A stretch of DNA of 64,000 nucleotides from Ceratorhiza oryzae-sativae (lineage: Eukaryota; Basidiomycota; Agaricomycetes; Cantharellales; Ceratobasidiaceae). Shown piece after piece: positions 16,005-29,406 of this stretch; positions within the stretch are counted from its first letter, which is position 1; every line of letters starts with the position of its first letter. A program made the position numbers and the translations under genes. The stretch lies in the NCBI GenBank assembly GCA_030998015.1, contig JARWMV010000026.1, positions 62,001 to 126,000 of the forward strand, in the 5' to 3' direction. The notes under the pieces are model-generated. The model saw nothing but the letters and a program-made list of their open reading frames with translations, made no database searches and was not told the DNA's origin.

Positions 16005-16751
16005 GAATGTACCCCACTACTGAAACCTAGCATTTCATGGGGTATAGAGACCTAGCTCTTCCCCTGAACACCTCACCTTTGGATCTCTCTTTGCAGGACC
16101 TAGGCATTGCTAAGAAGTGCCCAATGTGTGCCATTTTGACTGTGGTATGGACTCACAACTAACTCAGCAACTATTGTGTAGACACATGAGATATTAAGTA
16201 CATCAATGCAGGTGACAATATTGCTCTCTTGTAACCCCACTGAGAAAGAAGACTGATACCCCTTGACCTTATTTATCATGACAATTAGAGCTCTGTAATA
16301 GCAAGGTACCACAGCCATACCAGTTGGCACTTCCAGTGGAAATGTTACAAAAATCAAAGATGTTTTAGTTTCCTCTGCAAATCAAATATATGAAATCTGA
16401 GAATGAAAAAGAGCTTTGGATGAATTGTACCAAAAGCAAGCCATATAAAAATACTAACTCTGAAGGTTTGATGGCCTCTGCTTGGGATGATCTGTTTGGT
16501 CAATCTTATTGTGCCAGCTTTTGGTATGTTTTGTATGAACTAGTAGCTTATTTCACACCAAAATCCAAGGTCTGATTTGTATTGTTCTTCAACACACTTG
16601 GTTCATAAAGAGTTCTGGGACATGCACATATCTCAATCGACTCAAGATCCAACCAGACAGAAGATCTTGTAAAAACCAACTACATTAGCCCATGAATTCT
16701 GAGCTTTGTTTGATTTCTGCATATAGTCAACAAAAGATTAATACTGTCCCA
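16005..16751. other. no gene recognised
   Basis: Only short ORFs of unknown meaning (minus 16100-16357, plus 16390-16575). No domain or repeat recognised. Confidence 0.4.
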
Positions 16752-17066
16752 GGGATCAATACTATGTCATCAGGCCAAATACTATTGCCCCATGGGTCAA
16801 ATATTATATCCCCCCAGGTCAAATACTACTTCCCCCTGGGTTAAATAATAATTCCCCCAGGTCAAATATTATCTCTCCCTGGATCAAATACCCTCTCCCC
16901 CTGGGTCAAGTAATCTCTCCCCCTGGATCAAATACTATACTCCCTGGGTCAAATACAGCCTTCTTTGGGTCAAATATAATACATCTTGGGTCAAATACAT
17001 TGCACCTTGGGTAAAATACCCTGCACCTCAGGTCAAATACAGTGTACCATGGGCCAAACACTATGT
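16752..17066. repeat. minisatellite, about 15 units of 20-22 bp
   Basis: Diverged tandem copies of GGGTCAAATACTATCTCCCCCT. Units keep the GGTCAAATA core while the C-rich part varies. Non-coding. Confidence 0.88.
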
Positions 17067-17512
17067 AGTTCAGGTACTATTAGGTTTCTTAGCCAAGGCA
17101 GCAGCAAGGGAAAAACAAAGAAAAGGAAGCAGTAAAGCACATCCAAGCACTGCCTTGAGCCTGTGTTGCTAGGCTGTAAGAGGGTGGCTTGGAAGGAATG
17201 CTGGTCCTAATAATAGACCAAAGTCTGGCCAAGAAGGAAAGAGGGGGAAGGGGAATTGAGGGTGACTCTTGACATAACCCAATCCCAGAAGACAACATTA
17301 ATTCAGTGTGCATTGTCAGTGATGCCCAAGCCAGTAAGTAACCATACTGTCATGACTCATAACTGCTAACAGACCCAACTGCTAGAGGAGATCTGTCTCC
17401 TCAAGATCATGGCTGCACACTCCTGCACTGACCATGAGGTGTTGATTTGGCAACTTGATTGCATGACTGATGCAACTCCCAATGCCTTGGGGTTGGGGTT
17501 GGGGTTGGGCAT
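17067..17512. other. no gene recognised; short (GGGGTT)n tract at the end
   Basis: The tract GGGGTT x3 (about 17488-17506) lies just left of the retrotransposon insertion point. The same G/T-rich sequence continues at 28002 on the far side, as expected for one interrupted locus. Confidence 0.5.
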
Positions 17513-18090
17513 TGTCATGACCCTCTGGAGGCTCCCTTGTGGAGCACTTAAGTAGTGGCTGCGTTGACAGTTTGGTGCTATGCAGTATGTATTGAGTGTT
17601 CTAGTTACAGTGTTTGCTATGGTCTATGGTGGTTGACAAGATAAAGCAAGCTGAGGCGTTCAGTCTTGCTTTACTCCCCTTATATACCTGTGACTGTGGT
17701 TGCTGTGGTGGCCCCCCTTTCCTAAGCACTGTCTATAGCAGTTATAGGTTCTATATAGTACTAGGTCTTAGGTAATCGTTTATCCTAAGTTTGTGTGGCT
17801 CCGAATCTTATAGAGCCACGCAAGGTCCGAGGGTCATGTGACTTTTGGACTTAAGCACCCGGCGCTTAATCGCTGGATAAGCGCCAAGGTCATGTGACAA
17901 CTCGCTCCTTGCTCCAAGTAACATGGGAGAGAAACGCTGGAGCAAGTTCAGGGTAACCACCAGCGCTTGATCGTTGGGTAAGCGCCGAGATCACGTGATC
18001 TTGTTTATGGTTTGTTCTGCTTCAGGAAAAATGCCATAAATCTGTACAATATTCGGTTGTTAGGTTATGTCTGCTAGGGGGGTCATAACA
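17513..18090 (-). repeat. 3' LTR of the Rep-carrying element
   Basis: 578 bp. Read on the minus strand it starts TGTTATGACC and ends GGGTCATGACA. One copy of the ~101-bp tandem unit with a CACGTG-type palindrome; the partner LTR has two. Confidence 0.95.
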
Positions 18091-18106
18091 TTATCCCCCC
18101 CTTTGG
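18091..18106 (-). promoter_or_regulatory. polypurine tract of the Rep-carrying element
   Basis: On the minus strand CCAAAGGGGGGGATAA directly abuts the 3' LTR. It places the accessory cassette inside the retrotransposon's replicated unit. Confidence 0.88.
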
Positions 18107-18159
18107 ACATGTCTTGGGGGATCTCGAGGCATGTTTCTTTTCTGGGTTCTAAAAGTTTC

Positions 18160-18290
18160 TAAAAGGTATCTCATATATCAAGGAGGTTAAAGGCACTGGA
18201 CTCGAACCAACAACCTTCTGTTCAATGTGTAATTGCTCAGCTAGGAGATGATGAGTCAGGCTAGACCCCTTAACCTCTACGCTACATGAG
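18160..18290 (-). ncRNA. tRNA-like Pol III unit (A box and B box), SINE-like or tRNA pseudogene
   Basis: The minus strand has TAGCGTAGAGG (18284-18274), an A-box match, and GGTTCGAGTCC (18208-18198), a B-box match, about 65 nt apart, with a T-run near 18155. A GAGGTTAAGG segment can pair with CCTTTAACCTC about 90 nt later. The acceptor stem of a normal tRNA does not form well, so a tRNA-derived SINE or decayed tRNA is more likely than a working tRNA. It lies between the Rep-like gene and the polypurine tract. Confidence 0.5.
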
Positions 18291-18387
18291 ATTACTATCT
18301 CCTTGCTTATTTCCTTGTTTAAGCTTACTTCTTGACACATGGTCTGTGAATAAAACAGCTTATACAAAGATAATTTATTTTTATTTT

Positions 18388-19674
18388 TTAAGGAAAAACA
18401 AAAAATGGCTTCCCTCCTGAGTATACCCAGTCTACGTTTTTGGATACCCATAAGTCCCCTTCTTCCCCCTCTATGTCTGTCCAACACTTCATTATGGCCG
18501 ACCAGCTATTCCCCAGGATCACCGTTGGCCGTACCTTCATTGACTTCACATGAGCATATCTGCCTGTGAAGTCTGCCTTGTAATGGCTCAGGGCTTTGAG
18601 CAAGTACTTCCTGTTTGACTGGACCATGTCATCCAGGATCCAGATGTCGGCGTCCTCCAACAGATTCCCCACGTTCCAGACATTGCACATCCAGCTATGG
18701 GAGCCCTTGGATTGCGCATACGCCATCTTCCCAGTTCCTGTTTCACCTTCGATCACCAGGATGCGATGGCGCATGCCCCTCCCTCTCTTCTCAGCCTCTT
18801 CTGCAAACCATCGGTCTGCCCTGTCGATGTGCGCCCGGTCTTCTGGGACTTCCAACTCCACTGGGATTGCAGGCATGCATCCCCGGTCCTCCTTATATGT
18901 GTACTCAGCATATGCTTGTACCAAGTTCCACGTTGTCACCATCTGGAGGGGGCGCAGGCACTTGAATGCCTGGTAGTATTCTTTTTTTGTCGCCAAGGCA
19001 ACAATCTCCGCCCCATCCTCCAGGTCCACCTCCGCCCTCGACCTTTTCCTGCCCTTCCCCTTCACCAGGATTTCCTCCAACCTTTCCAAGGTCAGGTCCC
19101 CTGCCATCAGCTCCTCTACCTCCTTGCCGTTAGCTCCGACATCCTTCCAGAGGTAGTTGAAAGCCTCCCTTGCAGGGTTGCCTCCTGGTCTGTCCTTGAG
19201 GTCCTTCGGCAGGATGTTGGGGTGTTGCCCTTCAAAGTCCCAGAACCGGGTGTTCTGGGTGTTCCAGCTGCCCTTCTGCTCCTGACTGATGGAGAGGGCG
19301 TGGACATGGAGGGGCCGGGCCGGGTTGTAGTTCAGTTCCTCGGGGTTGTGGCGTTCCACCACTGCCAAAGTTGCCCAATGATTTGGCTGTTGGCGGCAGA
19401 ACGCCTCGTATCGGGTGACGAGCCCACTTGAGGGCTGATCGCGTAGCTTCAACCAGGTTAGCAGCACCACCCTGGTCTGGACGCAGAACCAAGGGGCCGG
19501 CGCAGTTTCGGTCAGCTCTTCAGACCCTTGATCTGTCGGCATAGGCTGCATAGAAGCGAGCAAGGGGGCTCGGCTTGATACCGAGGGCGCTGGCAATGGC
19601 GATGCCGACCTCTGCCCTTCGCTTGATCCGCTTGGCTGGGGTGTTGCCGCGTTCGATCCATTTCTGCTTAGCAT
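18388..19674 (-). CDS. CRESS-DNA-type Rep-like protein (HUH endonuclease + SF3 helicase), 428 aa
   Basis: Open from an ATG at 19674. Residues 1-60 are Ser/Pro-rich. Rolling-circle motifs follow: VVLLTW (69-74, motif I), LHVHAL (122-127, His-hydrophobic-His metal site), RFWDFEGQHPNI (143-154, resembling the extra GRS element of the geminivirus/genomovirus branch) and FNYLWKD (172-178, Tyr174/Lys177 as motif III). KGKGRKRSR (205-213) could be a nuclear signal. The helicase part has GETGTGKM (310-317, Walker A), WILDDM (345-350, Walker B) and ILGNSW (386-391, motif C). Such proteins nick an origin and unwind DNA in rolling-circle replication. Met317 replaces the usual Ser/Thr after GK, so ATPase function is doubtful. 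The gene lies between pol and the 3' LTR of a retrotransposon. It is an endogenous homologue, not evidence of an active virus. Confidence 0.88.
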   Translation of the reverse strand: MLSRNGSNAATPQPSGSSEGQRSASPLPAPSVSSRAPLLASMQPMPTDQGSEELTETAPAPWFCVQTRVVLLTWLKLRDQPSSGLVTRYEAFCRQQPNHWATLAVVERHNPEELNYNPARPLHVHALSISQEQKGSWNTQNTRFWDFEGQHPNILPKDLKDRPGGNPAREAFNYLWKDVGANGKEVEELMAGDLTLERLEEILVKGKGRKRSRAEVDLEDGAEIVALATKKEYYQAFKCLRPLQMVTTWNLVQAYAEYTYKEDRGCMPAIPVELEVPEDRAHIDRADRWFAEEAEKRGRGMRHRILVIEGETGTGKMAYAQSKGSHSWMCNVWNVGNLLEDADIWILDDMVQSNRKYLLKALSHYKADFTGRYAHVKSMKVRPTVILGNSWSAIMKCWTDIEGEEGDLWVSKNVDWVYSGGKPFFVFP

Positions 19675-20416
19675 CGTTTACAGTTTTAGAGGTATTTGGG
19701 GACTGGGAAGAGAGCATGAGAGTGTGGGTTATCTTGGGCCTTGTGCTTGTCTATATAAGCTGCAAGGTCTGTTTTGATTGTCACATGACTCCGTCTTGCA
19801 TTTGTTGTGATCACATGACCTTATTTTGGTGATGACGCATCTCTGAGGGGTGCCCTTCCATCCGTTCCCCTGCGTCAGCCTTAAACCTTGCTGCGCTCGG
19901 GGCCTCTGCTCCTCCACTCCGGTCGGTGCCCCCTCTCCGACCCCTCCAGTAGTTCAGGGGATAGCAGCCATATCATGTGACATTGTCTGGGTCACGTGAC
20001 CTTGTTGTTTTTCTTTGTCTGCTTGGGACACATGTTCACTTCGTGTCACGTGACTTGTTTGTTTTCTTGCTTGTCCTTGTATGTCTTTCCCTTGTGACGC
20101 ATCTCCGAGGGGTGCCCTCCCATCCGTTCCTCCGCGTCAGCCTTGATCCTCGCTACGCTCGGGGCCTCTGCTCCCCCACTTCGGTTGGTGCCCCCTCTCC
20201 GACCCCTCCGGTAGTTAGGGGATAGCGTATATTCACGTGACTAGGCTAGGTCATGTGATTCCTATGCTTTGTTGTTTGTTTTCTGGCAGATGGTCACATG
20301 TCTGTTGGTGTCACCTGACCAGACCTTGTTTTGATGTTTGTGCAAGTTATTGTGTTGCACCGTGATTTTTTAATGTTTGTGGTTTTGTTGTTTTCCTTCC
20401 TCATCCCGTCTTTACT
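19675..20416. promoter_or_regulatory. divergent intergenic region with duplicated hairpin block and CACGTG-type palindromes
   Basis: Separates the Rep-like gene (-) from a spliced gene (+). A 132-bp block (19833-19964) is repeated at 20095-20225. Each copy can fold: TGACGCA...TGCGTCA with an inner GGGG/CCCC stem in the first, TGACGC...GCGTCA with GAGG/CCTC in the second, plus a GGGGC...GCCCC hairpin. Around and between them are about nine GTCACRTGAC-like palindromes (for example 19780, 19990, 20045). A TATATA lies near 19752. No canonical nonanucleotide nick site was found. It could be a shared promoter; an origin role is speculative. Confidence 0.6.
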
Positions 20417-20958
20417 ATGCGTGTTATTTCCCTTAACTACAATCCACTTGACTGCACCTGCTGGTCTCTCCCTGAGGGGGAGTACTGCGCCTACTGTGAT
20501 GCCATGTGCAACACCTCCCTTGAAGACTTCTATCGAGGTGTTGGGGACTGGTTCTTCTGTGGGGTGCCAGGTATGTGTGTTCGTTCTTCATTGTTCTCAC
20601 ATAGCTAACTTGTTCTGTAGAAGAGCACATCCTCCTTGATGGTCGGGCCCATGAGGCCACCCTTGAGCGTGTCTGGGCACTCGTTGATCAGGACTACAAG
20701 TCCTTTGAGGAGCGGTCTCACCAGGCCGCTCTTGCCAAATTCTTCAAGGAGGGCTCTGCTCCCTTGTTTGATGAGGCTTCGCCCTTTGCAGCGTCTGGTT
20801 CTGGGTGTTTCCAGAACTACATGGCCGACTTCCCAGGGGGGGAGGCTCCTTGGCTGCAGCCCACTACCCAGTCAGTTGTTCAGACCAATAAGAAGGATAA
20901 AAGGGGCAAGAAGCCCTATACCCGGCCCCTCAAGGGCAAACGTAAAAATAGAGAGTAA
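20417..20958 (+). CDS. small spliced Cys-rich protein with basic tail, unknown function
   Basis: Two exons, 20417-20570 and 20621-20958, joined across a 50-nt intron with GTATGT donor and TTCTGTAG acceptor. The spliced frame is open for 163 codons. The N terminus has clustered cysteines (CTC, then CAYC and C at residues 13, 15, 24, 27, 31, with another at 48) that could bind zinc. The C terminus is strongly basic (KKDKRGKKPYTRPLKGKRK). An AATAAA-like signal (AAATAAAAC, about 20991) follows. It is divergent from the Rep-like gene and converges on the 273-codon ORF, inside the retrotransposon but on the opposite strand to gag/pol. No family recognised. Confidence 0.65.
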
Positions 20959-21039
20959 AAGGAAATGTATTAAGTTTGGTGTGTAGAAGAAAATAAAACT
21001 CTTATACATTCGGGAGACAATTTGTGGGAGGCAAAGTGG

Positions 21040-21861
21040 TCATATGGGGGTTGGTTCCAACAGTGGCACCTCCTCCAGAGCTTTGACAAGCTCGTTTTCC
21101 CACCGGTCCCAGTCCTGTTTGGCTTCCTCCGCAGCTGGGTCCAGGGTGGGTTCCTTTATTTCTGGCTTAGCTTCTTCTTCAGCCACAACCAGTGATTCTA
21201 GGCTTGATGTAAGGCTTGTCATATCAGTGTCGTAATTGGTGTTTTTGTTTGGGTGCACCTTCACCCAATTTTGGAAGTCACTCATGTTTGCCTGCTTCGT
21301 CCTGATAGCAGTAAACATCTCATCAGTGGTAGTTGCTTCGAGCAGTCCCACATACGGTGCAGCTGGTGTCAACTTCCATTCTTCCAGCAATGCCTTTGCC
21401 CGGCGCTCCACCTCCCAGTCCCCTCCGTCTGCCATTTGGCCTGTGGCCCTCCTCTGTTGTCTTGCTGCCTTGGTCACCATGTCGACTGTTGGTCCCACGA
21501 TATTGTCGATGACATACATCGGTGTTCTTAACAAGGCGTTTCTCGTTGTTGGCTTCTGGCTTCCATGCCATGTCAGGACCCCTAACCTGGGATCCAGGTA
21601 CTTGTCATTGTCGATCCAGTTCCTTTCATCCCTTAACTTCTTTGGGATGTACACTAGGTTAGCCCCTGGCAACAGTCGTTCGGCGTACCTCTGGGCGTCT
21701 TCCACACTGGAGCAGTACATCCCTGGTTTAGGACAATTTTCCCTGCCAGGGTAGGGTGCTGGCCGCCTGGTGGTGGGTGGCTGCCAAAGTGGGGCCACCT
21801 GATTTTCAGCAAGTGGGGTGTAACGGTTGGGATGTGCGACTGGGTGAGTGACGAAAGGCAT
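21040..21861 (-). CDS. uncharacterised accessory ORF downstream of pol, 273 aa
   Basis: First ATG at 21861; the frame is open further upstream to near the pol stop (21948), so a frameshifted or spliced extension is possible. Visible features: Pro-rich N terminus, a mixed middle part (CSSVEDAQRYAERLLPGANL, then IPKKLRDERNWIDNDKYLDP and RLGVLTWHG) and an acidic, charged C terminus with likely helices. No recognised domain, signal peptide or membrane segment. Extra ORFs between pol and the 3' LTR occur in some Ty3/Gypsy elements, but I do not recognise this one. It is uninterrupted although gag and pol nearby are broken. Confidence 0.6.
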   Translation of the reverse strand: MPFVTHPVAHPNRYTPLAENQVAPLWQPPTTRRPAPYPGRENCPKPGMYCSSVEDAQRYAERLLPGANLVYIPKKLRDERNWIDNDKYLDPRLGVLTWHGSQKPTTRNALLRTPMYVIDNIVGPTVDMVTKAARQQRRATGQMADGGDWEVERRAKALLEEWKLTPAAPYVGLLEATTTDEMFTAIRTKQANMSDFQNWVKVHPNKNTNYDTDMTSLTSSLESLVVAEEEAKPEIKEPTLDPAAEEAKQDWDRWENELVKALEEVPLLEPTPI

Positions 21862-21947
21862 GTTTTGGGGTTTCGCAGGTGTGTTGTGGTGCAAGTGAGG
21901 TGGTAGAGCGGGCTCTGGCCTTTCTTGGGTATCCTGGATGGCTCTTT

Positions 21948-24900
21948 TTAAAGCTTTCCAGATCCTCGTTTGGTTCTCTTTGGCCTGCCTTTCGAGTCAC
22001 CTGAGTGCTGACTTGTCTTGACTGGCATTGGTGCGTCTGGTAAGCGCCTTTGCAAGTCATTTAGAACCTCTTTCATGTCAGCAAACTTGCTGGCACGTTC
22101 CATTGTGTCTTCTATTGGGTCGTAGCCCTTCCATCTGATTTGGTAAAACAGCTCGCCATTCCATTCATAATTTGCAATGTGGTCCACCTTGTATTCCTCC
22201 TCTCCTTTTTCCGTTATGATTGGTGGTGGTTTGGCCTGCCTTCTTTGGAAGTCTTTATCTTCTGTGAATGGCAAGAGGAGATTTACATGGAATACATTGT
22301 GTACACGTATGGTTTTAGGTAGGTCCAGGCGATATGCATGGGATGAGATCTTTTCTGTGATTTCAAAGGGCCCCCCTTTTCGGTTGTCCAGTTTCTTGGA
22401 GGGTCTCTTGGAAAGGTTTGTTAGGAGCAGCCAAACCTTGTCTCCTACCTTGAATTCCCTCCCTTTCTTTTCCATTTGTTGGTGTAATTCCATTGAGGCT
22501 CTTGCCTCATCCCATACCTTTTCCATTTGATTACGCATGTTGTCTGCAGCGGGTGCCTCAGATGGTTCTTCTCCCTCTCAGACAACCCATCTTGGGTTTT
22601 TTCCATACACTGTTTGAAATGGGGTTTGTCCTGTTGTAGCATTTACGTGGTTGTTGTGGCAGAATTCGGCAATGGGTAACCATTTTACCCAATCATCTTG
22701 TCTATAATTGCAGAAGGTTCTTAAGAACCCTTCTACCCATTGATTTGTCCTTTCCGACAGACCATCTGTTTCTGGATGGAAAGCAGTGGAGAATCTGGGC
22801 TTTGTCCCAATTCCTTTGTATAGGGCTTTTAGGAATTGGCTGTTAAAGGTTGGCCCTCGGTCTGAGACAGTGGTTTCTGGGGTCCTGTGATGTCTCCATA
22901 CTTCCCTTATGAATATTTCTGCCAGTTCTTCTGCATTGGTGCTCTCCAGACATGGTACAAAATGGCCCTGCCGGAGAAGCGATCTACAACTGTCAAGATA
23001 CTGTCGTACCCTTTGAGACAGGTAATTTGACGATGAAATCATATGCGACATCTGCCCATGGTTTCCATGGGATTGGTAAGGACTTCAGGGGAGTGCCTTG
23101 TTTGTGTCCTTTGCTTCTTTGACATGTTTCACAAGATTCCACGTATCGGTTTACTTGGGCCTTCATTCCTGGCCAATAGTAATCCCTTGATAGTAATTCT
23201 AGTGTTCGGGCTTGTCCCTGATGACCTGCCACTGGGGCGTCATGGCACTCCTCAAGGAGACTCAACCTCAAGTCCTTGTCATCCGGGATGTAGAGCCTAT
23301 CGTCATACCTTAATAGGCCCTCCTTCATTTCATACTGTCTAAATTCCTTCTGTACTGAGGGCGGTAGTTGTTCTTTATTTGCCACGCTCAGCCTTAAGGA
23401 TCTGATAGATTTGTCTTCTTCCTGAGCTTCTTTAAGCTCTTCCCAGAAATTCCCCTGTACTTCTGCCATGAAACCTATGAACCTTTCTTCTGGAATCATG
23501 ATCTGTGGTTCCATAGGGGTATCCCCATGGTCGCTCCTTCTGGAAAGGGCATCTGGCTTCTGTGAGAGTTTCCCTGGTCTATACACAATCTGAAAATTGA
23601 AGGGTGCCAGAGTGAGATACCATCTGGCATGCCTTCTATTCCACATCTGGGCATTTTGCCAGTACTGGAGGTTCCTATGGTCAGTGTATATCACAATAGG
23701 TTCCTCTGTCCCTTCTAAGTATAACCTCCAGTGCTCTAAGGACCTAACAATTGCAAGCAACTCCTTGTTGTAGGTGTCATAATTTTTCTCTGGTGGGGTG
23801 AAGCTCTTCAATAGGAAGGCAATTGGATGCAATCGGTTGTCATCACCCTTTTGGCTTAGTACTGCCCCCATGGCCACTCCTGAGGCATCTGTTTCCAGTA
23901 TGTATGGCCTGTTTGGGTTTGGGTGGATCAGGACTGGTTCTCTTGCTACTGCTTCTTTGATAGCTTCAAATGCTTCCTGTTGTTTTCTTTCCCACAGGAA
24001 TTTGACATCTTTTTGGGTGAGATCTGTGAGGGGTTTGGCTAAGGTACTAAACTTCTCTATCCACCTTCTATAGAACCCCACAAGCCTAGGAAGGCTTGGA
24101 CTTCTTTTACTGTGTTAGGTTCTGGCCATTCTAGAACTGCCTTTACCTTTTCCTTTTCCATCGATATCCCTTCTGGGGATATGACAATTCCAATGAAGCT
24201 TACCTCCTTCACAAAGAACTGACACTTGTGTGGTTTGAGGAAGAGGTGGTTTTCCCTCATTCTTCTTAACACTTCCCTGACATGTTGTATGTGTTCTTCC
24301 CTGTTTCTGGAAAACACTAGTACATCGTCCATGTAGATTACCACATAATTCTATTATATCACGGAACTTTTCCATCATGAACCTGGTAAAGGTTCTTGGT
24401 CCTTCTTTTACTCCGAATGGCATGACCAAGCATTCAAACTGGCCTTCTCCTGTCCTGAAAGCTGTTTTCCATTCGTCTCCCTCTTTTACCCTGATGTTGT
24501 TGAACCCCCATCGAACATCCATTTTTGAATAGATGGTTGCATCCTTCAGTCTCTCAATCAATTCTATTTGGATTGGAAGTGGAAACCTGTCTGGCTTGGT
24601 GATGTCATTCATCTTACGGTAGTCGACTACCAACCTAAGCCCTCCATCTGCTTTGTTCACATAGAAACAGGGTGCAGCTACAACTGACTGGCTGGGCCTT
24701 ATTTTCCCATTTCTTAGTTCCTCCTCTAGGTACTCCCTGAGCGCCTTTGTTTCTGCTGGCGACATACTGTACCTCTTTGCAGGCTTTGGCAGCTCTGCTC
24801 CCTTGATCAGGTCCATTTTGAAGTCTAGGTTACCTTGGTGGGGTGGAAGTTCTCGGAAACCTTCTTCCCCAAATAGGTCTTCAAAATCCCTAAATTCTTC

Positions 24901-25380
24901 TGGGATTTGTAGGCTTTCACTTGCTGCCCTTGCCTTGATTTCATCTGGGTATGAGATGGTAAGGTCTTTCCAATCTATGATAGGTTCTGCTTCTTCAAGC
25001 CATTCTTTCCCTAGGACTATGTCTGTGTCACCTAGGGTCATTACATAAAGGGAGCATTTTAGTGTCTTCCCTTCCACTTCAATGTTTAGTTCTGCCCTTT
25101 CTTCTATGGCATCCTTGATTTCATTTCCATCAATGGCCACAATTGATTTCTTGTGTTTGAGGGGAGTGGTTGGAATCCCTTTTTCCCTTGAATAGGCCTT
25201 ATCGATGAAGTTGGTTGAAGATCCTGAGTCAATCAGCGTCTTAGCTGGTTCCATGATTCCCTCTACCGTAGTGTATATTATTGATTGATTACTAGACTTC
25301 TTGAGGTAACATACATCTGCGGTAGGGGTTATATTGGGGTCCTCCAACATGGAAGTGGTAGGACCAATTAGTTTTCCGAC
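21948..25380 (-). pseudogene. pol of the Rep-carrying element, frameshifted
   Basis: Order on the minus strand: protease (TLIDSGSSTNFID, about 25240), RT (KMDVRWGFNNIRVKEGDEW, about 24520; YMDDVLVFSRN, about 24330), RNase H (LETDASGVAMGAVLSQK, about 23900), integrase zinc region, integrase core (SDRGPTFNSQF about 22860; HPETDGLSERTNQ about 22770) and chromodomain (EYKVDHIANYEW...QIRWKGYDPIEDTME, about 22190-22090). Frame breaks lie near 24345, 24080 and twice near 22970-23040, plus a TGA at 22578. The breaks are mostly single-base indels, which could be decay or assembly errors. RT and RNase H catalytic residues are kept. This is the Tf1/sushi-like, chromodomain-bearing type of Ty3/Gypsy. Confidence 0.93.
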
Positions 25381-27201
25381 TCAGAGCTGCTTTCTTCCTC
25401 AACTTGTCTGCTGGCCTTCCCTTGTATCTTAGCTTTGTGTAGGTCCACTGGCCTCGGCACTCCTTCAGGACATGCCCTGATTTACCGCATTTGATACAGA
25501 GTCCTTCTTTCCTTCGCCTGTCCTTTTCACTGTTTGGTATCCTTACCATGTTGTTGGTTTGGGTATTCCCCTGTTTGCCGCTGGTCCCTAAAGGCTTGTT
25601 CCCCCCTTGTTTGTATTTCGCTGGTGCCCAGGTTGAATTTGATGAGTTGCTGGTCCTTGTATTCATTTTCTGGTTTGCAAACTGCATGTTGTCCATTTTG
25701 CAGGCAAAGTCAATTAATTGATCTAAGGTATATGATGGACCTTCAGCCTCATTTGCCAGTACTTCAATCCTTAAAATCTCTTGTCGTACTTCGGGTTTTA
25801 ACCCTTCCCTGAATTGGTCCTTGAGGGCTTCCTGGTTCCAGTCTACCTCTTGGATCAGGATCCGGAATTGGGTAGCATAATCCAATGCACTCTTGGTCTG
25901 TGTTAATTTCCTTAGTTTCCGGATGGTCTTTTCCTTTATGACTGGGTCATTAAAAGCATCCAGGAATCCCTTCCTGAAATCCTTCCAGGATGCAAGAATA
26001 CCTGTGTGTTCGCCTGCTAGTAGTTTCCGGCGGTAAGGTTGTGCCCAGTTTGCTGCTTCCCCATCCTCCATGTTCATTAGCACAGCAGATATCTTTTTTC
26101 GGTCATCAAAGGCTGATTCGTCATAGTCAGCAAAGAAAAGTTCCATGCTGATTATGAAGTTCTCTGCTTCCTTCCCCTTTTTCCCATTAAATTTGCTGGG
26201 TCTCCCTAGTCTCGCCTCCTTAGGAGTGTGGTTTGCAGCAAGGGTAGGTTGGTTTGCTTGGGATGGAGGTTCTGTTCGGGTCTTATTGTGGACTCAGCCT
26301 GGAAGGTTCTTCCCAGAAAGGGTGTTCGTACTGGGGAGGCTGAGGGGGATCGTGAGGGGCTTCCTATGACCACCCTAGTTCTTCCCCTGGTTTCTTCTGT
26401 CCTTTCCCTTGGCCTTCCTGCTTCAGTTGTTTTCCGGAGCTCATTTCCTAGATCGGTTACCTGTTGTTCTAGTGCGATTAGGATCTCCCCTGTGTTTTCG
26501 GTTTTCTTCTCTAAGCTTTCGAGCTTTCGCTCTTGCATTCCCAGTACCTGGTTTATTTCCATGGAGATGTCCTTTAATTCTTTTATCAGGTTCCCCATTT
26601 CTGCTTTTAGGTCGTCCTGGTTCTTTGCCACATAGAGGACATTTTTGTTGGATGTTTCCATTGACCTTACCATCCAGTCCACGTTTCCTTCTTGTCGGGT
26701 TAGTGATATTTGACACTGATTTATACCTGTGATTGCCTTTTCTAGTTCCCTATGATTATTGTCTCTAAGTTCCTTGAGCCCCGCCCTGATGGCCGTGGCA
26801 ATGGTGTGAATAGGGTTGGCAGTGGCTATGGCTCCGGGACCTGGCTGGGGTTGTGTCCTTGCCTCTTCCGCCAAGGCCGTGCCTTGTTCGTATATGGTTC
26901 AGGTCATATCTTCTACCTCATCCCTCTCTGGATTTGAGATATCTTCTGGGTCTGGATTTATCAGGTGAATTGGCGGTTGAGGGCTGCAGAGTGGTATTCC
27001 CCCTATTTCCCCTCCCAGGATGGGGGCCCAAGTGGGGTTGGGTTGAGCCACTGGTCGTGGGTTTTGTGGCAACCCCCCTGGCATTCCTTGGAGGGTCTCA
27101 TCTGGGTTACCTTCAGCCTCTGGGGAAGCAATGGGTTTGGGTGATTGTGGCCTACTATTTGCCACTCTGCTTTGAGATCGAGTTTGTGGTCTCTGTGACA
27201 T
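25292..27201 (-). pseudogene. gag of the Rep-carrying element
   Basis: ATG at 27201. A Pro-rich start, a TGA at 26899-26901 in an otherwise open frame (ACC TGA ACC, likely from CGA), a coiled-coil region (about 26740-26420: KNQDDLKAEMGNLIKELKD, QERKLESLEKK), a single-base frame change near 26230-26260, then the retrotransposon Gag core (FNGKKGKEAENF...YDESAFDDRKK, 26180-25700) and a CCHC knuckle CIKCGKSGHVLKEC (about 25505-25464). The pol frame overlaps its end. It builds the virus-like particle. Two lesions make it non-functional as read. Confidence 0.9.
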
Positions 27202-27308
27202 AGTTTCTTTATGTTCTCTTATGTATCACAGGAGTTAGCTGGTTTTCTCGTGTACTCAGCCCTTAGTATCTGTGTAGTATACTTATGTTCGCCACTAGTT
27301 AAGTTAAG

Positions 27309-27320
27309 AGCTTGCTTTAT
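27309..27320 (-). promoter_or_regulatory. candidate self-priming primer-binding site
   Basis: On the minus strand ATAAAGCAAGCT begins 2 nt after the 5' LTR and is the exact complement of AGCTTGCTTTAT in the LTR (27462-27451). That segment starts about 34 nt after TATATAAG (from 27496), near the expected RNA 5' end. Same geometry as Gypsy copy 1. Confidence 0.55.
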
Positions 27321-27322
27321 AA

Positions 27323-28001
27323 TGTTGTGACCCTCTGGAGGCTCCCTTGTGGAGCACTTAAGTAGTGGCTGCGTTGACAGTTTGGTGCTATGCAGTATGT
27401 ATTGAGCGTTCTAGTTACAGTGTTTGCTATGGTCTATGGTGGTTGACAAGATAAAGCAAGCTGAGGCGTTCAGTCTTGCTTTACTCCCCTTATATACCTG
27501 TGACTGCAGTTGCTGCAGTGGCCCCCCTTTCCTAAGTGCTGTCTATAGCAGTTATAGGTTCTATATAGTACTAGGTCTTAGGTAATTGTTTATCCTAAGT
27601 TTGTGCGGCTCTGAATCTTATAGAGCCGCACAAGGTCCGAGGGTCATGTGACTTTTGGACTTAAGCACCCGGCGCTTAATCGCTGGATAAGCGCCAAGGT
27701 CACGTGACAACTCGCTCCTTGCTCCAAGTAACATGGGAGAGAAACGCTGGAGCAAGTTCAGGGTAACCACCGGCGCTTAATCGTTGTGTAAGCGCCGAGG
27801 TCACGTGACAACTTGCTCCTCGCTCCAAGTAACATGGGAGAGAAACGCTGGAGCAAGTTCAGGGTAACCACCGGCGCTTGATCGTTGGGTAAGCGCCGAG
27901 ATCACGTGATCTTGTTTATGGTTTGTTCTGCTTCGGGAAAAATGCCATAAATCTGTACAATATTCGGTTGTTAGGTTATGTCTGCTAGGCAGGTCATTAC
28001 A
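27323..28001 (-). repeat. 5' LTR of the Rep-carrying element
   Basis: 679 bp. Minus-strand start TGTAATGACC, end GGGTCACAACA. Two tandem copies of a ~101-bp unit (about 27690-27905) with CACGTG-centred palindromes, against one copy in the 3' LTR. Confidence 0.95.
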
Positions 28002-28849
28002 GGCATGGTTGGGGTCAAGCAACTGCAGCTCCATCATGTCTCACCCTTTCAGCACTGCTTGCCCCACTGACATTGCTTGCCCTGCCAAAGCTCCCATTGT
28101 CAACACCACTTGGCCTGTGACCAACAACTCCCACTTGATTGGCACTCCCTGTCCCACTGTTGCTTCCTGTTCCACTGGTGCTCCCACTGGCACCCCTTGC
28201 CTAGCTGGTCCTCCACACCCTTCCCATGCACTATGCCCTGCCAATGTTCCTTGCCCTCCTGGTGTTCCTCATCTCAACAACATTGCCAATTTGCCCCATA
28301 CCTCAGATTGTGCCACAAATGGGGAAGAGCTGCTGCCCATTTTGGGCAAGAAGATGCTTCAGTGGATTGCATACCCAGAAAAGGATACCAAGTGCACAAT
28401 TGCTTGGATCTGCCATGGACTTGGTGCAAAAATGTGAGAGACATGGCTTGATATGCAGGTACATCTGACTGTTAGTTAATCCTGTATCTCTACTTACTTA
28501 AACTAACACAGGATGCAGTGTGGCAATTCACTGGCTGTTGTGGGTTTGACTTCTGCAAGCTCTGGAAGCAACAAAGTGGGGACAGCCTAGCCCTTGCATC
28601 TCATATAGTAAGTCATCTTATGTGTTATTTACTCTTCTACCTCTACTCATTATCTCATTCTAGTGAGAGAGACATATCCCAGGTCTCTTGAACTTTGAGC
28701 ACTGTTGGGCTACCACATGGTTGCTACAAACCAAGTTCAACCACCAACACAGCCATTGACTACAAACAGAAGAAGAGGTGAGAGAGCAAGAGCTTGCTCC
28801 ACAACTGGGTGCTGCAGATTTAGGTGAGTTTTCATAGCAATCCTACATG
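28002..28849. other. interrupted host sequence, Pro/Thr/Cys-rich ORF, not recognised
   Basis: A plus ORF at about 28009-28437 encodes repeated Pro/Cys/His-rich text followed by GEELLPILGKKMLQWIAYPE. A further fragment WQFTGCCGFDFCKLWKQQ lies near 28520. Looks like decayed coding DNA with introns, but no family is recognised. Confidence 0.35.
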
Positions 28850-29406
28850 TGTTTGACCCTCTGGATGCTTCCCTGCAAAGCACTTAAGTAGTGGATGTGT
28901 TGACAGTTTTGGTGTTATGCAGTGTGTATTGAGTGTTCTAGTTACAGTGTTTGCTATGGTCTATGGTGGTTGACAAGATAAAGCAAGCTGAGGTGTCCAG
29001 TCTTGCTTTATCCTTCTTATATACACCTGTGGCTGCAGTGGCTGCAGATGTATTATTTAAGCACAATCCACAGTAGGTACAGGTTATATACAGCACTATG
29101 GGTTAGGTAATTGTTTGTCTTAAGTTTGTGCAGCTCTGAATCTTATAGAGCCATGCAAGGTCTGAGGGGTAAGTGCTGAGGTCATGTGATCCTACCATAA
29201 GCACCAAGATCATGTGACAACTTGCTCCTTGCTCCAAGTAACAAGGGAGAGAAATGCTGGAGTGAGTTCAGGGTAACCACTGTAAGCACCAGTTAAGCGC
29301 CAAGGTCATGTGACCTTGTTTATGGCTTGTTCCACTTAGGAAAAAAATGCCATAAATCTGTAAAATATTTGGTTACTCTGTTATGTCTGTTTGATGGGTC
29401 ATAACA
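28850..29406 (-). mobile_element. solo LTR (557 bp), TSD ACATG
   Basis: Same family as the LTRs of the Rep-carrying element, minus orientation, with perfect ACATG at 28845-28849 and 29407-29411. Heavily CpG-depleted compared with 17513-18090, so it is an older copy. Confidence 0.93.

Follow-up and report, generated by a model that had tools for sequence, protein, structure and literature searches.

A Ty3/Gypsy retrotransposon family of Ceratorhiza oryzae-sativae with a putative CRESS-type Rep module between pol and the 3' long terminal repeat

The window analysed here is a stretch of 64,000 nucleotides (nt) from the basidiomycete Ceratorhiza oryzae-sativae (GenBank assembly GCA_030998015.1, contig JARWMV010000026.1, positions 62,001 to 126,000 of the forward strand); all coordinates are those of the window. 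The minus strand of 17513-28001 is a Ty3/Gypsy long terminal repeat (LTR) retrotransposon with the order gag, pol, extra genes (about 3.8 kb), polypurine tract and 3' LTR. One of the extra genes encodes a Rep-like protein with the motifs of a rolling-circle endonuclease and a helicase. The 5' LTR (27323-28001, minus strand, TG...CA), which contains a tandem duplication of about 101 bp, and the 3' LTR (17513-18090, minus strand) are direct repeats with 95-96% identity and a p-distance of 0.035. They are bounded by a perfect 5-bp target-site duplication (TSD), GGCAT, at 17508-17512 and 28002-28006 (read on the plus strand), as had been seen in a first-pass annotation made from the letters alone. 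Directly before the 3' LTR a G-rich polypurine tract (18093-18103, minus strand) can be read from the sequence.

The retroviral genes all lie on the minus strand. Gag (25292-26146), taken from the list of open reading frames (ORFs) and from Pfam, has a Retrotrans_gag match and a CCHC knuckle. Protease and reverse transcriptase (RT) occupy 24115-25350, where the frame of the window copy is broken; RNase H, H2C2 and integrase follow in two overlapping ORFs (22578-23871), and the C-terminal part of the integrase lies at 21948-22538 (Pfam). Gag, protease, RT, RNase H and H2C2 were all matched by Pfam, the integrase core only weakly (E 0.008), and the chromodomain match of 21 bits is below its cut-off of 25.1. 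With these two weak matches included, the element has the chromovirus layout, i.e. gag, then protease, RT, RNase H and integrase, and a chromodomain after the integrase, together with chromovirus-type ends (TG..CA LTRs and a short TSD from integration). The first-pass annotation had called it a complete chromovirus. This holds for its structure (LTRs, TSD, polypurine tract and gag-pol order) but not for its coding capacity, as pol of the window copy is split over several ORFs.

The Rep-like ORF (18388-19674, minus strand) codes for 428 amino acids (aa). It is open, as first described, and shows in order motif I, HUH, a GRS-like element, YLWK (the YxxK motif III), Walker A, Walker B and motif C. 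The first four are what is expected of a rolling-circle Rep and the last three of a superfamily 3 (SF3) helicase; the order is that of circular Rep-encoding single-stranded (CRESS) DNA viruses. HUH and YLWK are conserved in all 21 own-genome copies and the remaining motifs in most of them. Walker A reads GKM in the window and GKT in most copies, and a few others deviate in the helicase motifs. A search with the sequence gave 47 homologs at E 0.001 among 7997 scored candidates. With the alignment, 67 of 7996 scored candidates were below E 1e-40 and the next followed at E 0.55. Among the scored candidates, the homologs belonged only to Ceratobasidium (AG-Ba, 395, 428, 414 and UAMH 11750) and to unnamed proteins, a distribution that by itself points most probably to Ceratobasidium or a near relative as the host. 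In viral_contigs no viral relative could be confirmed with the Rep alignment, and pattern scans gave only contigs of at least 4 kb; phage and plasmid records matched Rep at chance level only (E 2 or worse). The motifs are largely kept in homologs of 45-75% identity.

Further copies of the element were looked for in the whole assembly (48.8 Mb, 253 contigs). Since the searches score the best candidates only, all copy counts and context counts are lower bounds. One Rep search gave 98 scored matches out of 252 candidates and a second one scored 98 of 245; together with a third search, they yielded at least 118 distinct Rep places after merging of overlaps. This number makes misassembly very unlikely, as far as evidence at the level of the assembly goes. 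In all 21 copies examined (20 loci and L040) a 3' LTR lies directly downstream of Rep, and the 801-bp span from the end of Rep to the LTR was uninterrupted in 40 scored places out of 576 candidates. The full order of integrase/chromodomain, ORF3, ORF2, intergenic region, Rep, tRNA-like stretch and LTR was present in 17 of 20 ten-kb stretches, or 18 of 21 with the window. The three exceptions are L022, where a nested insertion splits the copy (8-nt overlap at the insertion ends), L028, where similarity stops within ORF2, and L024, where an LTR is fused directly to part of ORF3 in the focal copy and a second Rep of this stretch has the full order. Perfect 5-bp TSDs, all different from one another, were found in eight of nine further elements; L026 has none, with both ends read. 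Because other copies hold the cassette at the identical place within their own perfect TSDs, the Rep gene lies inside the unit that is copied by reverse transcription, which bears out the first-pass annotation. The Rep-bearing copies are thus a family feature of the LTR element, mobilised as part of it. A chance nested insertion, which the first-pass annotation had named as the reading to adopt if the cassette had its own boundaries within one element only and no other copy carried it, is rejected for the copies examined by position, TSDs and copy number.

The reverse view, from the integrase, is similar. For the best 40 of 179 integrase candidates, a part of the module was found downstream in 36 (ORF3 in 35, Rep in 27, and in C11 the intergenic unit only), and none was listed for the other four. 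Two units, the second one of L024 and L025, have the 5' part of the element joined to the integrase at an identical junction, with gag and RT deleted and the Rep module kept; they are apparently a non-autonomous derivative. Nested insertions occur in this family (L021, L022).

An internal stop is present in 65 of the 98 scored Rep matches and absent from 33. These stops are mostly TGA, and the differences between Rep copies (window 18391-19674 and own-genome copies) are mostly transitions. Both observations suggest C-to-T decay of Rep copies after insertion.

The start of Rep is overlapped by another frame, ORF4 (19520-19717, minus strand), which begins 43 nt before the Rep ATG and in the window encodes 65 aa up to a TGA. 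Of the 20 other copies, 14 have an ORF4 of 103-195 aa, the one at C143:14525 has an ORF4 that continues into Rep, and in the remaining five it is shorter or has no ATG. The copy at C143:14525 is the second Rep of the L024 stretch; it forms row L024 of the Rep alignment and was left out of the sliding windows of the two frames. At nt 120-180 pN/pS was 0.15 in the ORF4 frame versus 1.29 in the Rep frame, and over the whole overlap with the first 55 or so Rep codons the pooled ratios were 0.27 and 0.90, respectively. Beyond about nt 300, windows of the Rep frame were at 0.05-0.35, with one at 0.81, and the ORF4 frame is mostly unconstrained, with lower late windows of 0.60 and 0.30 at nt 780-900. 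In-frame stops within the overlap of the 21 copies number six in the ORF4 frame and none in the Rep frame. Over the first 55 or so Rep codons the constrained frame is therefore that of ORF4 and not that of Rep. Read-through from the ORF4 frame into the Rep core is seen in the C143:14525 copy, by a 13-nt deletion, and in the Ceratobasidium AG-Ba protein P0007. Either ORF4 is a separate overlapping protein, or the ORF4 frame supplies the true N-terminus of Rep, through a +1 shift or through splicing that has escaped notice. The functional N-terminus of Rep may thus differ from the annotated one.

Upstream of Rep, two more genes complete the module. ORF3 (21040-21861, minus strand) is a sense accessory gene of 273 aa. 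It gave 142 genome matches, in part several fragments from a single copy; among 1080 candidates outside the genome no relative was found at E 0.001. ORF2 (20417-20958, plus strand) runs antisense to the element and codes for 163 aa after splicing of exon 1 (20417-20570), with a Cys-rich N-terminus, to exon 2 (20621-20958), with a basic C-terminus. The intron between them (20571-20620, 50 bp, GT..AG) measures 50-52 bp in all 19 copies with an ORF2 alignment. As it is antisense to the retroelement RNA, splicing of this RNA would leave it in place, which fits its survival.

Between ORF2 and the Rep unit lies an intergenic region (19718-20416) with a TATA-like TTATATA at 19752-19758. TCACRTGA sites occur there at 9.4 per kb, in the LTRs at 5.2-5.9 per kb and elsewhere in the window at 0-1 per kb. 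Their density in both places suggests that the intergenic region and the LTRs are under shared regulation, and the region is probably a bidirectional promoter for Rep and ORF2. It also holds a conserved GC-rich unit of about 135 bp, which in the window is present twice (copy 1 at 20095-20221 and copy 2 at 19833-19959, both minus strand) and which is a candidate target of Rep. There are one or two such units per copy, and all 21 copies have at least one (26 units in total, one of them clipped at the end of its stretch). For 36 of the 40 best genome matches of the unit, a Rep place was found within 3 kb downstream; one of the four others (C16) is the L022 copy split by a nested insertion. A hairpin origin in this unit was rejected, with folding z-scores of -0.01 and -0.38.

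Between Rep and the 3' LTR, a tRNA-like stretch (18140-18300, minus strand), with A-box and B-box-like motifs, is present in all 21 copies examined; ARAGORN predicted no tRNA and Rfam gave no match in it. The copy number of the repeat of about 101 bp within the LTR differs among elements in many copies. Less than 1 kb from the 5' end of the element, at 28854-29000, lies an LTR-like stretch with 86-96% similarity to parts of the LTR, probably a remnant or a neighbouring copy. On the other side, an array of units of about 21-22 bp (GGTCAAATA-type) at 16751-17058 adjoins the element.

To estimate selection, the median dN/dS was taken over copy pairs with dS above 0.03, and codons with stops were skipped. 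Rep had a value of 0.28 (21 copies, 207 of 210 pairs), ORF3 one of 0.25 (19 copies, 149 of 171 pairs) and ORF2 one of 0.21 (14 copies, 87 pairs); gag gave 0.32 (13 copies, 36 of 78 pairs) and RT 0.25 (14 copies, 35 of 91 pairs). The Rep of the window and that of L040 differ with a dN/dS of 0.15 at dS 0.67. The ORF2 set comprises the 14 of 21 copies with an ORF2 of at least 145 aa and leaves out L022 and L028 (no ORF2 start), L023 and L031 (truncated), L025 and L030 (shifted end) and also L035, whose ORF2 was missed by the start pattern though it has 163 aa. These ratios, calculated from the sequences, indicate purifying selection on all reading frames of the module.

The divergence is distributed very unevenly. 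The median difference between copies is 1.0-1.2% in gag, RT and integrase, and the differences reach 33% in ORF3, 15.5% in the ORF2 region and 17.5% in Rep. When the window was compared with ten copies, the stretch from the 3' half of ORF3 to ORF2 was at about 65-70% identity against eight of them. L034 and L035 matched the 5' part of ORF3 at 60-71%, and in the comparison with L040 an identity of 94-99% gave way to 66-88% within the intergenic region. The identity profiles are blockwise, and the copies thus exchange blocks of the module. The two LTRs of an element differ from each other by 1.2-4.4% (11 elements; the 5' LTR of L025 was wrongly delimited, at 2802 bp), mostly more than pol does between copies. 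Mutation seems to be uneven along the element.

In geminiviruses and other CRESS-DNA viruses, the Rep motifs come in this order, divergent genes surround one intergenic region and a frame overlaps the start of Rep. The module resembles them in all three respects, and the layout of ORF4 recalls the nested C4 frame of geminiviruses. It differs from CRESS-DNA viruses in that no capsid gene was recognised and no nonanucleotide was found, and in that it sits in an LTR element. An antisense gene, brtn, is also reported for the LTR element Boty of Botrytis. Among retroelements, a Rep gene has a precedent in the Terminons, which are not known to have LTRs or an integrase. These giant Penelope-like elements of bdelloid rotifers can carry a rolling-circle Rep among their accessory ORFs, and circular intermediates have been suggested for them (PMC6431247). 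In having such a Rep among accessory ORFs, they are like the window element; as far as that source describes them, they differ by a Penelope-like RT, by their attachment to telomeres and by their animal host (PMC6431247). The window element, in contrast, combines a Ty3-type chromovirus pol, LTRs, TSDs and a compact ambisense module in a fungus; it is no Penelope-like element without LTRs.

That LTR elements can carry further ORFs after pol and ahead of the 3' LTR has been described before (PMC7264820, PMC5408684, PMC9289625). In the parts of these sources that deal with them, they are, as here, conserved accessory genes at a corresponding place, in sense or antisense, in most copies. The antisense ORFs described in PMC7264820 differ in that they do not clearly resemble any known protein or virus, and the passages on extra ORFs in the three sources name no Rep (PMC7264820, PMC9289625, PMC5408684). 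In Tuber melanosporum, a geminivirus-like Rep transposon with 42 Rep genes or remnants is likewise a fungal mobile element with a multi-copy Rep-like gene (PMC3198968). It differs, in the description given there, in being a DNA transposon with 37-bp terminal inverted repeats, transposase ORFs and no obvious TSD (PMC3198968). The claim of the first-pass annotation that no retrotransposon with a Rep had been described thus has to be narrowed in view of the Terminons (PMC6431247, in the passages on their accessory ORFs). For LTR retrotransposons it stands as far as searches of the open PubMed Central library go, in which no Rep module turned up; closed literature was outside the search. Rep cargo in retroelements and extra ORFs in LTR elements are already known, and a Rep module in an LTR element appears to be new.

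We interpret these results as follows: a Ty3/Gypsy chromovirus family would have taken up a compact module of single-stranded DNA virus type downstream of pol and ahead of the 3' LTR. This module would consist of Rep with the frame overlapping its start, a spliced antisense gene that diverges from it, the intergenic region between the two and one more gene in sense. The copies show that the LTR element takes the module along when it is copied and inserted. Our main conclusion, to which we give a probability of roughly 0.8, is that the module functions as part of the retrotransposon under selection and is of the CRESS Rep type.

Several results weigh against this conclusion. The Rep of the window had no match of note in Pfam, NCBIfam or the PDB, and no model reached its curated cut-off. 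PF08283 and PF00799 gave no match in the genome search, but there the controls were silent as well. Geminivirus Rep central domain Gemini_AL1_M matched 9 of 25 alignment members below its curated cut-off (best E 0.001), whereas nSTAND3, a P-loop family, matched more of them (16 of 25), if weakly (best E 0.043). AlphaFold2 models were of low confidence, with a pLDDT of 33.4 for the whole Rep and 54.5 for the catalytic domain, and fold searches with them were uninformative. In ORF2 and ORF3, which have no Pfam match, no capsid gene was recognised. The GC-rich unit folds no better than shuffled sequences, and the CRESS nonanucleotide (origin motif) NANTATTAC is absent from both strands of 17513-28001. 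Finally, no Rep was found for 13 of the 40 integrase matches, in Rep searches that each scored 98 candidates, out of 252 and 245 respectively.

From the missing family matches, the weak nSTAND3 matches and the uninformative fold searches, it could be argued that the protein is another P-loop protein in which the motifs occur by chance. However, seven motifs in the CRESS order, largely conserved in the homologs, would then have to be fortuitous. The weak Gemini_AL1_M match also lies at the right place: it covers positions 11-106 of the 107 of the profile and extends into Walker A. A pattern of the motif order, drawn after the protein had been seen, was found in none of 409 unrelated ORFs and none of 20000 shuffles. 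It is complete in 12 of 68 homologs (11 of 28 of those with at least 380 aa), many of which are partial or broken gene models. We therefore consider chance motifs in an unrelated P-loop protein improbable, and the protein very probably of CRESS type. Still less can be said for a chance nested insertion or a passenger without any role. Internal stops in Rep matches and the nested insertions in this family could be cited in its favour, yet the identical place in the copies examined, the perfect outer TSDs and the purifying selection on the module genes make it highly improbable.

What the module does for the element is a different question. As the preferred mechanism, put forward tentatively from sequence features, Rep would copy circular DNA of the element by rolling-circle replication. 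Rep and ORF2 would be transcribed from the intergenic region with the TCACRTGA sites that it has in common with the LTRs. In extrachromosomal circles of the element, for example LTR circles left by reverse transcription, Rep would then nick the intergenic region, and the rolling-circle copying that follows would be a step of DNA amplification besides reverse transcription. This mechanism is supported by the upkeep of both nuclease and helicase motifs and by the GC-rich unit, which all 21 copies examined have and whose best genome matches mostly have Rep nearby. The absence of the nonanucleotide and the ordinary folding of the unit speak against it. About as likely, however, is an indirect benefit for the retrotransposon. 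Geminivirus proteins are known to change the host cell, and Rep and its companions could be accessory proteins acting on the host through entry into S phase and the supply of nucleotides, through DNA repair or through silencing. Selection on the whole module, with ORF2 and ORF3 included, and the lack of a canonical origin motif agree with this, as does the fact that, among the sense and antisense ORFs known from this part of LTR elements, some may be regulatory (PMC7264820, in its passages on such ORFs). Yet host manipulation by itself would not require the joint maintenance of nuclease and helicase motifs, and HUH and the Tyr of motif III are kept in all 21 copies. Rep might also nick or unwind the element in its linear or genomic form and so aid integration or recombination, without any rolling-circle copying. 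The mosaic copies, with blocks of about 60-71% identity in ORF3-ORF2 among otherwise close copies and with the intergenic switch in L040, would suit such a role; however, template switching during reverse transcription yields mosaics without Rep, and we regard this role as unlikely.

If rolling-circle copying by Rep does take place, the element could be a true hybrid, which spreads by reverse transcription and integration and is amplified between integrations by rolling-circle replication from an intergenic origin. We hold this to be somewhat doubtful. If true, it would amount to an LTR retrotransposon fused with a geminivirus-like replicon, and LTR circles, usually regarded as dead ends, would be replicating intermediates. 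At the strength of our main conclusion, an LTR retrotransposon carries a whole replication module of single-stranded DNA virus type under selection. Carried in a retrotransposon, genes of virus type would be able to persist in fungal genomes and to spread there, and the family may offer a system for testing where reverse transcription and rolling-circle replication meet.

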